Below are positions 30,229-59,720 of a stretch of DNA of 64,000 nt, in pieces (position 1 is the first letter of the stretch; each line of letters begins with the position of its first letter). The translations under genes and the position numbers were made by a program. Source of the DNA: Meghimatium bilineatum. Its lineage: Eukaryota > Mollusca > Gastropoda > Stylommatophora > Philomycidae. Under the pieces are notes generated by a model. That model was not told the origin of the DNA. It did no database searches and was given only the letters and a program-made list of their open reading frames with translations. Location of the stretch: contig CM067311.1 in the NCBI GenBank assembly GCA_034231615.1, forward strand, positions 11,976,660-12,040,659. Reading direction: 5' to 3'.

Positions 30229-30813
30229 ATACTTTATCAATATCTTGGACACATAGTCACAAATGATGGCAGATGTGAAACAGAAGTTAAAAGGAGAATA
30301 GGAATGGCTAAAAGTACCTTCAATGGCATGAGGAAATTATTAATATCTAAACAAATTACAAACAAGTTAAAAATGAGAATTATAAAATGCTACATCTATT
30401 CATATTAATGTATGGCTCAGAAACATGGACACTAAATAAACAATTAGAAGACAAAATTGATGCCTTTGAGATGTGGGTATATAGAAGAATAGGGAGAACA
30501 TCATGGACAGAGAAGAAAACAAATAAAGAGGTGCTAAAGACACTTAATATGAAGAAAGAACTACTAAGAGAAATAAAGATCAGGCAAATAAAATACTTTG
30601 GACACATTAAAAGACATGACACCCTATTGAAGACCTTACTTGAGGGTAAAGTCAAAGGGAAGCGAGCAAGATGTAGGCAGAGATACACGTGGGAGAGTAA
30701 CATTACACGATGGACAGGTTACAGTCTAGCAGAGTGCACCACCAAGACAAGAGATGTTGGAGATACGTTGCAGCCAACCTTCGTTGCGGAGACGGCACTT
30801 GATGATGATGATA
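30229..30813 (+). pseudogene. LINE L1-family 3' half
   Basis: From YQYLGHIVTNDGRCETEVKR and RIGMAKSTFNGMRKLLISKQ through MYGSETWTLNKQLEDKIDAF to KGKRARCRQRYTWESNITRW, ending with a GATGATGATGA tail. One frameshift near 30400 and a 13-base deletion near 30755 (TTKTRDVGDTL). Otherwise quite fresh. Confidence 0.9.
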
Positions 30814-30856
30814 ACAAGAGTTCCTTTTGAACAATACCTTTCAACATCTCCAGTTA

Positions 30857-45503: not shown

Positions 45504-46440
45504 CATCATCATCATCAAGTGCCGTCTCCGCAACAAAGGTTGGCTGCAACGTATCTCCAACATCTCCTGTCTCTTGTCTTGGTGGTGCACTCTGCTAGAC
45601 TGTAACCTGTCCATCGTGTAATGTTACTCTCCCACTTGTATCTCTGCCTACCTCTTGCTCGCTTCCCTTTGACTTTACCCTCAAGTAAGGTCTTCAATAG
45701 GGTGTCATGTCTTTTAATGTGTCCAGAGTATTTTATTTGCCTGATCTTTATTTCTCTTAGTAGTTCTTTCTTCATATTAAGTGTTTTTAGCACCTCTTTA
45801 TTTGTTTTCTTCTCTTTCCATGATGTTCTCCCTATTCTTCTATATACCCACATCTCAAAGGCATCAATTTTGTCTTCTAATTGTTTATTTAGTGTCCATG
45901 TTTCTGAGCCATACATTAATATGGAATAGATGTAGCATTTTATAATTCTCATTTTTAACGTGTTTGTAATTTGTTTAGATATTAATAATTTCCTCATGTC
46001 ATTGAAGGTACTTTTAGCCATTCCTATTCTCCTTTTAACTTCTGTTTCACATCTGCCATCATTTGTGACTATGTGTCCAAGATATTGATACTGTTTTACT
46101 TGTTGTAGTTTCTCTCCCTGTATGTTTATGTTTACCTCCTGTTCTTCTGTGTTTTTGCTGATTATCATGGTTTTTGTTTTTTTGAATGTTTATATCCAGT
46201 CCATATTCATTACTTGATTTATTGACTTGATCTATTAGTCTTTGTAGTTCATGTTCACTTTCTGCTAAAAGAACAGTGTCATCTGCATATCTAATGTTGT
46301 TTATTATTTTCCCATTGATCTTGAGTCCTGGTATTTCTTCTATATTTTTAAAGATATTCTCTGTGTAGATATTAAATAGGCTTGGTGATAAAATGCATCC
46401 TTGTCTTACCCCTCTTTTTATTTCCTTTTTATTCCTCCCT
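45504..46440 (-). pseudogene. LINE L1-family reverse transcriptase, best copy
   Basis: Minus strand from KRGVRQGCILSPSLFNIYTE and IPGLKINGKIINNIRYADDT (YADD codons at 46279-46290) to ERLIDQV-like sequence, one frameshift near 46175, then a 217-residue open frame: QYQYLGHIVTNDGRCETEVK, YGSETWTLNKQLEDKIDAFE, IKRHDTLLKTLLEGKVKGKR, ending CCGDGT and a (GAT)n tail. Lacks the N-terminal endonuclease. Confidence 0.92.
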
Positions 46441-46571
46441 GTATAGTGTTTGCAAATCTGGAATTTCTGTTGATGTTATAAGTACTTCTTCTGATGTTCG
46501 TTGTGTGACTGTGAACTAACCGAGGCTGGTCCCATCTGAAACCTTAACTAAGTCTTAGCTTCTAAAAGACT

Positions 46572-51412: not shown

Positions 51413-51562
51413 TACCGCATTACTTGTCATTTGGAAGATTAATTTTATAGACAACACAATAAATCATTAATTATATATCAATTATGGTAGTTCACTGATC
51501 AAGTCTTTTTCAAAATGACATAATCTGTCTCCCATTTATCATCTTTTCTATATACTAAACTG

Positions 51563-52170
51563 TGAACTGGAGTACATTGTACACTGCTGCGCCTTGGGGT
51601 AAAATGTGCACTACTGTAGTTTGGAGTGCAGTGTGCATCTCTGTGGCTTGGAGTGCAGTGTACTCTGCAGTTAGTTGGAGTACAGTGTGCATATCTGTGA
51701 CTTGGAGTGCAGTGTACTCTGCAGTTAGTTGGAGTACAGTGTGCATCTCTGTGACTTGGAGTGCAGTGTACTCTGCAGTTAGTTGGAGTACAGTGTGCAT
51801 CTCTGTTACTTGGAGTGCAGTGTACTCTGCAGTTAGTTGGAGTACAGTGTAAACTGCTGTGACTTGGAGTACAGTGTACACTGCTGCGACGTGGAGTACG
51901 GTGTACACTGCTGAGAGTTTGAGTACGGTGTACAGTGCTGTGAACTGGAGTACATTGTACATCACTGTGATTTGGAGTACAGTGTAAACTGCTGTGACTT
52001 GGAGTACAGTGAACACTGCTGTGACTTGGAGTACGGTGTACACTACTGAGAGTTTGAGTACATTGTACACTACTGAGAGTTTGAGTACATTGTACACTAC
52101 TGAGAGTTTGAGTACATTGTACACTACTGAGAGTTTGAGTACATTGTACACTACTGTGAATTGGAGTATT
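51563..52170 (+). repeat. 27-bp tandem array with dimeric higher-order unit
   Basis: About 22 copies of a unit like GACTTGGAGTACAGTGTACA plus CTGCTGT. At 51620-51850 two variant units alternate, giving a 54-bp higher-order period. At 52030-52160 a different variant (GAGAGTTTGAGTACATTGTA) is homogenised. The core GTACAnTGTAC is palindromic. Both strands stay open because 27 is divisible by three, so reading frames here are artefacts. Confidence 0.95.
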
Positions 52171-52702
52171 CTTGACATGAAATATAGCCCTTGAAAAAAA
52201 ACATATTGCACATAGGAAACAGAAGTTTCATCGCTCATAATTCCTGGAGAATTAAAGTATCAACAAGTATCCGACTAAAGTCTCGGTGAGCCGAGGAATA
52301 GTTCTTTCAACCCAAGACCAGAATCTATTGTGTGTTAAACTAGTTCCAAGCTCCGCTATTTTTACAATAAAAACATGGTTTTTTCATACTTATTCTTATA
52401 GTAACATCACCATGATTCCAATCTGGTTATTTCGTAACGTTTGATGGTACAAAATGTTGAAGACTCAAGTACAATCTCCGAAGGTAACATTCATTCCGTT
52501 GTTTGTTTCAGACTCTAGGAGCCGGGGCACTCACTTTTTAACATAAAACAGCCACTAAAATTTGAGCTGTGTAAATACACGGGCTAATATCACGCGATAA
52601 CAGTTTACATACAATAACTCTCTTGGACGTTCGACTTTAGTTTTATGTTTTCGACTATCTTCGCCCGCGACTGAGTTCTGCTCTAAAACAAAGTGGAACA
52701 AA
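52170..52702. other. 5' flank of the sperm-protein gene
   Basis: Stretch between the 27-bp array and the ATG. It holds no recognised repeat. The last 80 bases before the ATG are richer in CpG than the surroundings (TTCGACTATCTTCGCCCGCG). No unambiguous TATA box or H1 promoter box is seen. It probably holds the promoter and the short 5' UTR. Confidence 0.4.
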
Positions 52703-53182
52703 ATGGCGTCCGAATCAGTGTCGGATCATCACTCCAGCGACACAAATAGTAGAATTACGGTAGATACCGTAATTTTAGCGCTGGAGTCTTTGAAAGAAGC
52801 TAAGGGTTCGTCCATGAGTACCTTGAAAAAGTACTTCTCATCGAACCTGCCTGACCATATTTCATCAAATGAGATATCCCTCCAATTGAAGAAAGCCCTC
52901 GCGAAAGGTATTCGCGAGGGTAAAATTTCCCAGATGGGTATGTCAAAGTTCCTTATCGGACAGGATGACGACGACGACGGTAGCAAAAAACGACGTCGTC
53001 GAAATCTAGATGATGATGAGGAGAGACCCCATCGAAGGAGACGACGATCACGACGCCGATGTCGTCGCAGGAGGAGGCGCAGGTGCAGGAGGAGAAGGAG
53101 AAGGTGTAGGCGTAGGAGTCGATCGCGACGTCGTTGTCGTAGGCGACGGCGTTGCAGGAGACGACGACGCTACAGACGTTAA
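52703..53182 (+). CDS. Protamine-like sperm nuclear basic protein (H1-like winged helix plus Arg/Cys tail)
   Basis: Predicted DNA-binding protein that would compact sperm chromatin. Seen: 159 residues in a single exon. Residues about 18-86 fit the linker-histone H15 fold (VDTVILALESLKEAKGSS, then LKKYF, then ISLQLKKALAKGIREGKISQ, ending KFLIG). Residues 88-92 are DDDDD and 103-107 are DDDEE, with a KKRRRR stretch between them. Residues 111-159 contain 40 Arg, five Cys (120, 128, 135, 145, 151), three Ser and one Tyr. The chosen ATG has a good context (A at -3, G at +4) and precedes the whole domain. Known: PL-type sperm proteins of molluscs and tunicates derive from histone H1 and keep the winged helix. 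Inferred: the Cys residues may cross-link or bind zinc in mature sperm. The tail uses mixed CGN and AGR codons. Other nearby sequence is all repeat. The alternative is a somatic H1 variant, but a Lys-poor, Arg-rich tail argues against that. Confidence 0.88.
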   Translation: MASESVSDHHSSDTNSRITVDTVILALESLKEAKGSSMSTLKKYFSSNLPDHISSNEISLQLKKALAKGIREGKISQMGMSKFLIGQDDDDDGSKKRRRRNLDDDEERPHRRRRRSRRRCRRRRRRRCRRRRRRCRRRSRSRRRCRRRRRCRRRRRYRR

Positions 53183-53217: not shown

Positions 53218-53233
53218 GGTCCTTTTCAGGACC
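53218..53233 (+). promoter_or_regulatory. Histone-type 3' stem-loop
   Basis: GGTCCTTTTCAGGACC forms a perfect 6-bp stem with a TTTC loop. It matches the SLBP-bound 3' end signal of replication-dependent histone mRNAs (usual form GGCTCTTTTCAGAGCC). It starts 35 bases after the stop codon of the sperm-protein gene, within the usual histone spacing, and is followed by AATCCA where histones usually have ACCCA. No clear purine-rich downstream element for U7 snRNA is evident. It implies that the gene is, or recently was, expressed with a histone-type mRNA end. Confidence 0.9.
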
Positions 53234-53285
53234 AATCCATCAGTACCACTTTTCTAAATATTTGGTTTGGTTTATAGACTACTTA

Positions 53286-53291
53286 AATAAA
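53286..53291 (+). promoter_or_regulatory. Possible polyadenylation signal
   Basis: AATAAA lies about 53 bases beyond the histone stem-loop, right where the 27-bp array begins. Some histone genes carry both a stem-loop and a backup poly(A) signal, used in non-dividing or germ cells. In AT-rich DNA such a hexamer can arise by chance. Confidence 0.4.
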
Positions 53292-53815
53292 GTAAACATA
53301 TATAAATAATATAAGTACAGTAAGTATCTATAGACAATATAAGTACAGTAAGCATATAAAGACAATATAAGTACAGTAAGCATATACAGACAATATAAGT
53401 ACAGTAAGCATATACAGACAATATAAGTACAGTAAGTATCTATAGACAATATAAGTACAGTAAGCATATAAAGACAATATAAGTACAGTAAGCATATACA
53501 GACAATATAAGTACAGTAAGCATATACAGACAATATAAGTACAGTAAGTATCTATAGACAATATAAGTACAGTAAGCATATAAAGACAATATAAGTACAG
53601 TAAGCAAATACAGACAATATAAGTACAGTAAGCAAATACAGACAATATAAGTACAGTAAGTATCTATAGACAATATAAGTACAGTAAGCATATAAAGACA
53701 ATATAAGTACAGTAAGCAAATACAGACAATATAAGTACAGTAAGCATATACAGACAATATAAGTACAGTAAGCATATACAGACAATATAAGTACAGTAAG
53801 CATATATAGACAAAA
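53287..53815 (+). repeat. 27-bp tandem array with 4-mer higher-order unit
   Basis: About 19 copies of a unit like AGACAATATAAGTACAGTAA plus GCATATA, starting about 105 bases after the sperm-protein stop codon. The variant TATCTATAG recurs roughly every 108 bases (near 53327, 53436, 53544 and 53649), which shows four-unit higher-order repeats. Minus-strand reading frames through it are artefacts. Confidence 0.95.
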
Positions 53816-53989
53816 TATATCATTTCAACAAAAAAGGAGATCTTCCTATAAACTTGTTTAATAAAGCCGTGCACTTTGTTATTTCTTTTTCATTAATAAG
53901 TTGATTTTAGAAAATACACAAGGAGGAGAAGGGGGAGGGAACTGGAAGCTTTGTTGTGCTAACTAATATAACGTTTTATTTTTATACGG

Positions 53990-57582: not shown

Positions 57583-57640
57583 TAAGCAATATGCGCTTCA
57601 ATCTCTGTCGCAATAATCTATCAGTGTAACAATAACATAA
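57583..57640 (+). repeat. Left flanking direct repeat of the 20-bp array
   Basis: AGCAATATGCGCTTCAATCT, then GTCGCAATAATCTATCAGTG, recurs at 59719-59775 with four or five changes in the same orientation. Confidence 0.88.
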
Positions 57641-59720
57641 GTCTAGGAACAATAACATAAGTGTAGGAACAATAACATAAGTGTAGGAACAATAATATAA
57701 GTGTAGGAACAATAACATAAGTGTAGGAACAATAACATAAGTGTAGGAACAATAACATAAGTGTAGGAACAATAACATAAGTGTAGGAACAATAACATAA
57801 GTGTAGGAACAATAACATAAGTGTAGGAACAATAACATAAGTGTAGGAACAATAACATAAGCGTAGGAACAATAACATAAGTGTAGGAACAATAACATAA
57901 GTGTAGGAACAATAACATAAGTCTAGGAACAATAACATAAGTGTAGGAACAATAACATCAGTGTAGGAACAATAACATAAGTGTAGGAACAATAACATAA
58001 GTGTAGGAACAATAACATAAGTGTAGGAACAATAACATAAGTGTAGGAACAATAACATAAGTGTAGGAACAATAACATAGTGTAGGAACAATAACATAAG
58101 TGTAGGAACAATAACATAAGTGTAGGAACAATAACATCAGTGTAGGAACAATAACATAAGTGTAGGAACAATAACATAAGTCTAGGAACAATAACATAAG
58201 TGTAGGAACAATAACATAAGTGTAGGAACAATAACATAAGTGTAGGAACAATAACATAAGTGTAGGAACAATAACATAAGTGTAGGAACAATAACATCAG
58301 TGTAGGAACAATAACATAAGTGTAGGAACAATAACATAAGTCTAGGAACAATAACATAAGTGTAGGAACAATAACATAAGCGTAGGAACAATAACATAAG
58401 CGTAGGAACAATAACATAAGCGTAGGAACAATAACATAAGCGTAGGAACAATAACATAAGTGTAGGAACAATAACATAAGTGTAGGAACAGTAACATAAG
58501 TGTAGGAACAATAACATAAGTGTAGGAACAATAACATAAGTGTAGGAACAATAACATAAGTGTAGGAACAATAACATAAGTGTAGGAACAATAACATAAG
58601 TGTAGGAACAGTAACATAAGCGTAGGAACAATAACATAAGTGTAGGAACAATAACATAAGTGTAGGAACAATAACATAAGCGTAGGAACAATAACATAAG
58701 TGTAGGAACAATAACATAAGTGTAGGAACAATAACATAAGTGTAGGAACAGTAACATAAGTGTAGGAACAACAATATAAGTGTAGGAACAATAACATAAG
58801 TGTAGGAACAATAACATAAGTGTAGGAACAATAACATAAGTGTAGGAACAATAACATAAGTGTAGGAACAATAACATAAGTGTAGGAGCAATAACATAAG
58901 TGTAGGAACAATAACATAAGTGTAGGAACAATAACATAAGTGTAGGAACAATAACATAAGTGTAGGAACAATAACATAAGTGTAGGAACAATAACATAAG
59001 TGTAGGAGCAATAACATAAGTGTAGGAACAATAACATAAGTGTAGGAACAGTAACATAAGTGTAGGAACAACAATATAAGTGTAGGAACAATAACATAAG
59101 TGTAGGAACAATAACATAAGTGTAGGAACAATAACATAAGTGTAGGAACAATAACATAAGTGTAGGAACAATAACATAAGTGTAGGAACAATAACATAAG
59201 TGTAGGAACAGTAATATAAGTGTAGGAACAATAATATAAGTGTAGGAACAATAACATAAGTGTAGGAACAATAACATAAGCGTAGGAACAATAACATAAG
59301 TGTAGGAACAGTAACATAAGTGTAGGAACAATAACATAAGTGTAGGAACAGTAACATAAGTGTAGGAACAATAACATAAGTGTAGGAACAGTAACATAAG
59401 TGTAGGAACAATAATATAAGTGTAGGAACAATAACATAAGTGTAGGAACAATAACATAAGTGTAGGAACAATAATATAAGTGTAGGAACAATAACATAAG
59501 TGTAGGAACAGTAACATAAGTGTAGTAACAATAACATAAGTGTAGGAACAATAACATAAGTGTAGGAACAATAGCATAAGTGTAGGAACAATAACATAAG
59601 TGTAGGAACAATAACATAAGTGTAGGAACAATAACATAAGTGTAGGAACAATAACATAAGTGTAGGAACAATAACATAAGTGTAGGAACAATAACATAAG
59701 TGTAGGAACAATAACATAAG
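57636..59720 (+). repeat. 20-bp tandem array, about 104 copies
   Basis: Unit GTGTAGGAACAATAACATAA with scattered C/T and A/G variants. A one-base deletion near 58079 breaks phase. Blocks with GTCTAGG and CATCAG variants at 57920-58360 repeat, suggesting higher-order duplications. Three units equal 60 bases, so all three minus frames stay open (up to 584 residues); these are artefacts. Confidence 0.98.

Follow-up and report, generated by a model that had tools for sequence, protein, structure and literature searches.

It has long been asked how near-pure arginine protamines originated from lysine-rich linker histones. A 64,000-nucleotide stretch of the genome of the slug Meghimatium bilineatum (the window, which lies on contig C14) raises it in the form of a single reading frame in which a linker histone head precedes a tail made almost entirely of arginine. 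Is this frame a functional gene, what would its product do in the nucleus, and how does it stand in relation to the histone genes of the same genome and to the sperm proteins described in other animals?

A linker histone head joined to an arginine tail

The frame comprises 159 codons and runs uninterrupted from ATG to TAA at window positions 52703-53182 (+), intact as the original prediction had described it. Its parts are as follows.

52703..53182, + strand: single-frame coding sequence, 159 aa and a stop codon, of a predicted protamine precursor derived from H1 (open frame; three intact paralogues)
52754..52960, + strand: winged helix (linker histone globular domain), residues 18-86, its wing lacking 4 residues relative to the H1 of this genome (PF00538; PDB; H1 alignment)
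52961..53032, + strand: linker (residues 87-110), in which a KKRRRR block has an acidic patch on either side, D88-D92 and D103-E107 (sequence; linker acidic counts)
53033..53179, + strand: protamine-like tail, residues 111-159 (49 aa), with 40 Arg, 5 Cys, 3 Ser and 1 Tyr (composition; silent codon turnover among copies)

A search against linker histone (H15) profiles had been named beforehand as a test of the prediction, and it was positive. Pfam PF00538 (Linker_histone) matched residues 22-79 with 39.5 bits against a cut-off of 22.4 (E 6.8e-10), close to the winged helix that had been placed at residues 18-86, the borders of which are approximate. No further domain was found in the 159-aa protein by Pfam at E values up to 1. 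The best solved-structure matches by sequence were PDB chains 1ust and 1uhm, each named "Histone H1" (E 1.6e-5), which we take to be yeast chains. The shortened wing is a 4-residue deletion that, at the level of the sequence alignment, is common to all four copies of the gene (see below) relative to the H1 of this genome.

The five cysteines lie exactly where they had been reported (positions 120, 128, 135, 145, and 151; spacing 8, 7, 10, 6). The two acidic patches likewise exist, and their placement can be made more exact: the first directly follows the head, the second follows the KKRRRR block, and both precede the main tail within a linker of 24 residues. The tail contains no lysine. The product has the Arg/Lys-rich, putatively disordered, protamine-resembling C-terminal region of the H1-derived sperm protein class (40 of 49 residues are Arg). 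A P-type protamine is a small Arg-cluster protein without a globular domain, and the globular domain of this gene product places it outside that group, although the tail would qualify by itself if released. Nor does it conform to a canonical somatic linker histone H1, with its Lys-rich C-terminal tail and complete wing, since the tail lacks Lys and the wing is shortened.

Tandem Repeats Finder reported a single 2-copy row of 21 bp inside the gene (53069-53110). Long tandem repeats flank the gene on either side (51560-52168 and 53284-53817), the latter being a 28-bp array of 19 copies that begins ∼100 bases past the stop codon. At window positions 57628-59720, ∼105 copies of a 20-bp unit form a further array. 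Elsewhere in the window, the frames at 45518-46475, 30351-30827, and 1919-2899 resemble pieces of a non-LTR retrotransposon reverse transcriptase, present in several copies.

Four intact copies under purifying selection

A six-frame protein search of the genome (1.61 Gb in 32 contigs) using the head as the query recovered at least four loci with intact frames and arginine tails, on contigs C14 (the window), C8, C22, and C25, which we refer to as Arg-tail genes. The original prediction contained neither the three paralogues nor the shared upstream motifs and histone-type 3' stem-loop that we describe below. Head identity to the window copy is 74% for C8, 76% for C22, and 55% for C25, and a reciprocal search with the C25 copy, the most divergent, returned the same four loci among the matches listed (E up to 1). 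No decayed Arg-tail copy appeared among the matches listed in these genome searches. Each copy occupies a single frame, and the copies are dispersed over separate contigs, with no shared neighboring gene seen in their flanks: when six ∼10-kb flank stretches of the three other copies were compared with the window by blastn, 173 of 183 rows fell on repeated pieces, and the remaining 10 were one-to-one matches of 51 to 383 bases scattered over the window.

The heads of the Arg-tail genes are under purifying selection, with dN of 0.16 to 0.29, dS of 1.2 to 3.4, and dN/dS of ∼0.06 to 0.21 (NG86, six pairs, with dS near or past saturation). In the linker plus tail of the three closest copies, 27 to 31 of 67 to 71 aligned codons differ silently, next to 12 to 14 residue changes (dS for this region is undefined in three of the six pairs). 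This silent turnover indicates that what is conserved in the tail is a protein of Arg, Ser, and Cys and not a repeated DNA sequence.

The family has kept both Arg and Cys. The two copies nearest to that of the window have 45/55 and 40/49 Arg in tails composed of R, S, and C only, and RS dipeptides number 3, 6, and 5 in the three Arg tails. In the C25 copy, by contrast, 17 of the 50 tail residues are Cys, many of them in CC pairs, and the tail charge is 22 compared to 40 to 45 in the other copies. The acidic patches are similar in three of the four copies, and acidic residues in the linker number 10, 8, 8, and 2, the last value being that of C25.

The spacing of the cysteines had originally been taken as a pointer to disulfide bridging. 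Among the copies the spacing varies (8,7,10,6; 7,17,11; 13,7,9), which rules out a fixed Cys geometry, though C120 and C135 (window-copy numbering) form two invariant columns in a gapped alignment of the four proteins. Cys as such is retained: it occurs 13 times in the three Arg tails together, from which His, Trp, and Gln are all absent. CGY codons change to Cys or His by CpG transition at about equal rates, so that the 13-to-0 contrast suggests selection for Cys, although it is only indicative because the copies share ancestry.

Conserved flanking motifs and a histone-type stem-loop

The Arg-tail genes also share sequence outside the coding frame, with the following elements at the window copy.

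52621..52633, + strand: upstream motif TCTTGGACGTTCG, ∼80 bases before the ATG (a variant lies 80-82 bases before the ATG in 4/4 Arg-tail genes)
52673..52682, + strand: motif GAGTTCTGCT, 30 bases before the ATG (GAGT[TC]CTGCT, 25-30 bases before the ATG in 4/4 Arg-tail genes)
53218..53233, + strand: histone-type 3' stem-loop GGTCCTTTTCAGGACC, 6-bp stem and 4-base loop (fold; paralogues; canonical H1 genes)
53248..53265, + strand: downstream motif ACTTTTCTA then ATTTGG, part of a stem-loop plus ACTTTYTA-type composite, perhaps for 3'-end processing
53286..53291, + strand: AATAAA, possible alternative poly(A) signal (sequence)

Neither the TCTTGGACGTTCG-type motif nor GAGT[TC]CTGCT was found at any of 10 other loci scanned. 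We infer that TCTTGGACGTTCG is likely a core-promoter element and that GAGTTCTGCT likely belongs to the transcription-start region.

The stem-loop starts 36 bases past the stop codon and has a predicted fold of -9.3 kcal/mol (z -2.99). Its stem is present in all four Arg-tail genes, in each of which the same order follows the stop codon: a T-rich stretch comes first, then the stem-loop, with a stem of 6 bp and a loop that reads TTTY, and after it either ACTTTYTA or ACTTTTCTA, with a TTTGG-like stretch last. Rfam returned no match at its gathering threshold, and a targeted search with RF00032 (Histone3) scored 17.6 bits on the stem-loop, under the gathering score of 34. Covariation in the stem is weak: 41 of 42 cells pair, both-sided changes affect one of six pairs (equalled by 188 of 500 shuffles), and the covariation score was reached by 19 of 500 shuffles. 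Better evidence than the Rfam score comes from controls within the genome, its canonical histone genes (see below). The composite of stem-loop and ACTTTYTA-type motif occurs at 7 places in 1.6 Gb, 4 of them Arg-tail genes, and at none in a reversed-pattern control. A looser pattern gave 12 places (0 in the control), including three copies on C24 of a single-frame, non-histone gene family whose products begin with MGN (the MGN family, described below); two pattern matches (L038 and L040) are unlike the others and may be due to chance. The stem-loop with ACTTTTCTA was also observed near unassigned frames at L024 and L039 on contigs C12 and C7.

The single frame and 3' stem-loop of these genes reproduce the intronless, stem-loop-bearing form of replication-dependent histone genes, like the canonical H1 genes of this genome and similar to its H4. 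Replication-dependent histone genes are marked, in the available excerpt of the source, by the stem-loop together with a purine-rich element (PMC5011920). The conserved downstream motif of the Arg-tail genes is the pyrimidine-rich ACTTTYTA, whereas the replication-dependent mark is a purine-rich element with no poly(A) signal. In the four Arg-tail copies the first AATAAA lies 104, 135, 262, or 466 bases after the stop codon, and since all four have one within 500 bases, ordinary poly(A) ends are possible.

Histone genes and other carriers of the stem-loop

A genome search with PF00538 gave 10 places among the matches listed. Besides the four Arg-tail genes, these are four canonical H1 genes, each in a single frame (L005-L008, two of which form an identical inverted pair on C24), an H1-like exon on C19, and one further exon, which we take to resemble HP1BP3. 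The canonical H1 genes are single-frame like the Arg-tail genes, and all four carry after the stop codon a stem-loop, GGTCCTTTTTAGGACC, that is identical to that of two of the four Arg-tail genes. They differ in having Lys/Ala/Pro tails poor in Arg (L005 has 4 Arg among 210 residues), a full wing, and no ACTTTYTA motif in the downstream sequence examined. The C19 exon has a splice-acceptor-like end to its upstream sequence, and the stem-loop pattern had no match at that locus. One H4 gene has a close form of the stem-loop, GGCCCTTTTCAGGGCC. The heads were also joined in a small tree; it has no root, and the parent H1 lineage is not readable from it. Cross-matches of a CENP-T histone-fold profile marked tandem clusters of short frames at C21 15.31-15.37 Mb, C23 39.13-39.18 Mb, and C25 84.78-84.85 Mb; one short frame read from these clusters (L051) encodes histone H4.

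The stem-loop is not a histone-only element, a notion ruled out by its occurrence at MGN genes and in an array on C9. Exact GGTCCTTTTTAGGACC has 88 copies in the genome (0 in the reversed control), of which 80 are arrayed in tandem between 36.02 and 36.14 Mb on C9, mostly ∼1.2 kb apart. The other eight are found at the four canonical H1 genes, two Arg-tail genes (C22 and C25), one MGN gene on C24, and one place on C1. The one array unit that we read (L050, C9:36026150-36027500) encodes, on visual inspection, pieces of a non-histone MGN protein in two overlapping frames. Because the stem-loop is common to histone and non-histone genes, it is by itself no proof of histone-type or S-phase control; histone-type regulation retains support because 4/4 single-frame canonical H1 genes carry the stem-loop and the H4 gene a close form of it.

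Three loci on C24 (L028, L046, and L048) are single-frame MGN-family genes of ∼210 aa, and the stem-loop and CTACTTTTCTA come after every one of them. No Pfam family scored over its cut-off on the L028 frame. At L027, an open frame (1060-1452) precedes the same 3' element of stem-loop and motif; phmmer matched this frame weakly to the capsid protein of a rod virus in PDB (E 8e-4), and the corresponding match of L028 was weaker still (E 0.15); comparison of the L027 and L028 frames demonstrated no relatedness. The genome also carries a mitochondrial COI insert in nuclear sequence (L030, C2:121989805-121990428), the sole COX1 match among the matches listed, which reads like the COI of a heterobranch gastropod.

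Two divergent genes for the stem-loop-binding protein, SLBP, are present, with two exons seen for each (L034-L037, contigs C2 and C1). As a lead only, this may leave room for a germline-specific SLBP.

A putative precursor of a sperm nuclear basic protein

We consider it probable (roughly 0.78) that the gene encodes the precursor of a sperm nuclear basic protein of the H1-derived (PL) type, the tail of which would condense the DNA of sperm. This reading is based on the Linker_histone profile and PDB H1 matches, the Arg/Cys tail, and the selected, intact copies. It is also favored by the 4-residue-shorter wing, which agrees with the wing hairpin reported as lost in PL precursors in the available part of PMC11607694. 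An H1-derived, sperm-type protein had been proposed from the start, and this is supported by the H15 domain, in a molluscan genome, with the sperm role a probable one.

We hypothesize that male germ cells make the mRNA from the short promoter and that this mRNA ends in, or is controlled by, the histone-type stem-loop. The winged helix would bring the protein to nucleosomal linker DNA, and the acidic linker would stop the tail from binding DNA too early. Such a mask is compatible with the comparison of copies, in which linker acidic residues fall from 8-10 to 2 where the tail is much less basic. The RS sites of the tail may be phosphorylated at first and lose their phosphates later. Cleavage at a putative site in the linker would probably free the Arg tail from the head; the tail would condense the DNA, and its cysteines would form intermolecular disulfides that lock the chromatin. 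A replication-dependent-type end would fit expression in S phase or in spermatocytes better than in late spermatids, which counts against the scheme, and the presence of the stem-loop beside non-histone genes counts against a simple reading of that end.

Cleavage is the step at which a different mode of action could enter. The full-length protein might persist in sperm chromatin like clam PL-I, with its head on nucleosomal DNA and its tail bridging neighboring fibers. Purifying selection on the head argues that it is functional and not a mere leader, and a single large PL-I is described in mature Spisula sperm (PMC5550673, in part). We nonetheless regard uncleaved action as doubtful, given that, in the available descriptions, the terminal protamine-like region of an H1-like protein is removed by cleavage in Mytilus and occurs by itself in the sperm of spiders, and that the H1 fold has a shortened wing here.

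More distant still is the prospect of a non-sperm linker histone variant, or an Arg-rich nuclear factor (for example, one that binds RNA) built on the H1 fold. A histone-type stem-loop suits S-phase histones too, and the tails contain RS dipeptides, which occur in splicing factors as well. Such an identity seems improbable to us: a tail of ∼80% Arg with Cys and no Lys, together with a Cys-rich sister copy, has the traits of a protamine, and Linker_histone was the sole domain found by Pfam at E values up to 1. That the frame is decayed, or a chance or repeat artefact between the long tandem repeats on both sides, is refuted as far as sequence allows by four intact copies, purifying selection, and conserved upstream and 3' motifs.

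Within the sperm precursor reading, we tentatively raise a further proposal, which taken as a whole is rather unlikely. The Arg-tail precursors may derive from, or still run as, replication-dependent H1 genes, with an mRNA that ends in the stem-loop and does not depend on poly(A), and one of the two divergent SLBPs may store this mRNA until spermatids are ready for it. Were this true, the 3' signature of stem-loop plus ACTTTYTA would mark a wider regulon, with a non-histone gene family among its members. The usual account of where protamines come from would then need qualifying, since recent papers, in the excerpts available, derive such H1-type sperm proteins from replication-independent H1/H5.

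Comparison with known sperm proteins

H1-derived sperm proteins have precedents in bivalves, tunicates, spiders, and wasps, as far as the available excerpts of the literature extend. Proteins that join a winged helix to a basic C-terminal region, which is often cleaved, form a recognized class in which some members contain Cys (PMC11607694, PMC13148410, PMC12216123, each in part), so that the initial description of the slug protein as unusual as a whole was overstated. The available part of PMC13148410 cites PL cleavage for molluscs, tunicates, and a liverwort. Our comparisons with these published proteins are by description, the sequence matches being those to PDB and Pfam only.

A cysteine-containing PL-I was reportedly described by Zhang, Lewis, and Ausio in 1999. 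Among molluscs, the closest H1-derived proteins are PL-I of Spisula and the cleaved PL-II/PL-IV precursor of Mytilus, covered in PMC5550673 (in part), which have basic tails, are partly cleaved, and in some cases contain Cys. By description, the bivalve PL region is rich in both Arg and Lys (PMC13148410, in part), whereas Lys is absent from the slug tail and the whole protein is just 159 aa long. Two protamines, a cysteine-bearing one from Eledone cirrhosa, a cephalopod, and one of 106 residues from the gastropod Monodonta turbinata, are likewise molluscan Arg-cluster proteins (PMC12216123, in part), and a title cited there attributes Cys and inter-protamine disulfides to the former. Both are listed in the available part of that source as protamines and not as H1-domain proteins; a head-plus-tail gene such as the one described here could, by analogy, be how a tail like theirs gets made.

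Outside the molluscs, the spider H1/H5-like precursors (Araneus ventricosus AVEN_19411.1/GBL99906; Steatoda nobilis P1 and P2) combine a winged-helix head that lacks the wing hairpin with a short C-terminal protamine region in one protein (PMC11607694, in part). Compared by description, the slug tail differs in being nearly all Arg plus Cys, and the slug gene adds the acidic linker and the histone stem-loop. The wasp proteins Nv-PL1 and Nv-PL2 also join a winged helix to a basic peptide, and RNA interference against the highest-expressed PL gene caused partial male sterility; these are insect proteins, and an acidic linker is not among the features described in the available part of the source (PMC13148410). 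The excerpts of the literature available, in which older protamine work is little covered, describe no protein with exactly such a tail and acidic linker and no stem-loop in a protamine gene.

If our reading is correct, one genome catches the change from linker histone to protamine, with a selected H1 head, an acidic buffer, an Arg/Cys tail, and a histone-type gene ending, and the Cys-rich sister copy on C25 would be a second outcome of the same transition. The family offers concrete genes in which to study cleavage, masking, and disulfide locking, as well as which H1 lineage gave rise to protamines. The class to which the slug protein would belong is already known; what sets this member apart is the purity of its tail, its acidic linker, its Cys-rich sister copy, and the ending of its gene.
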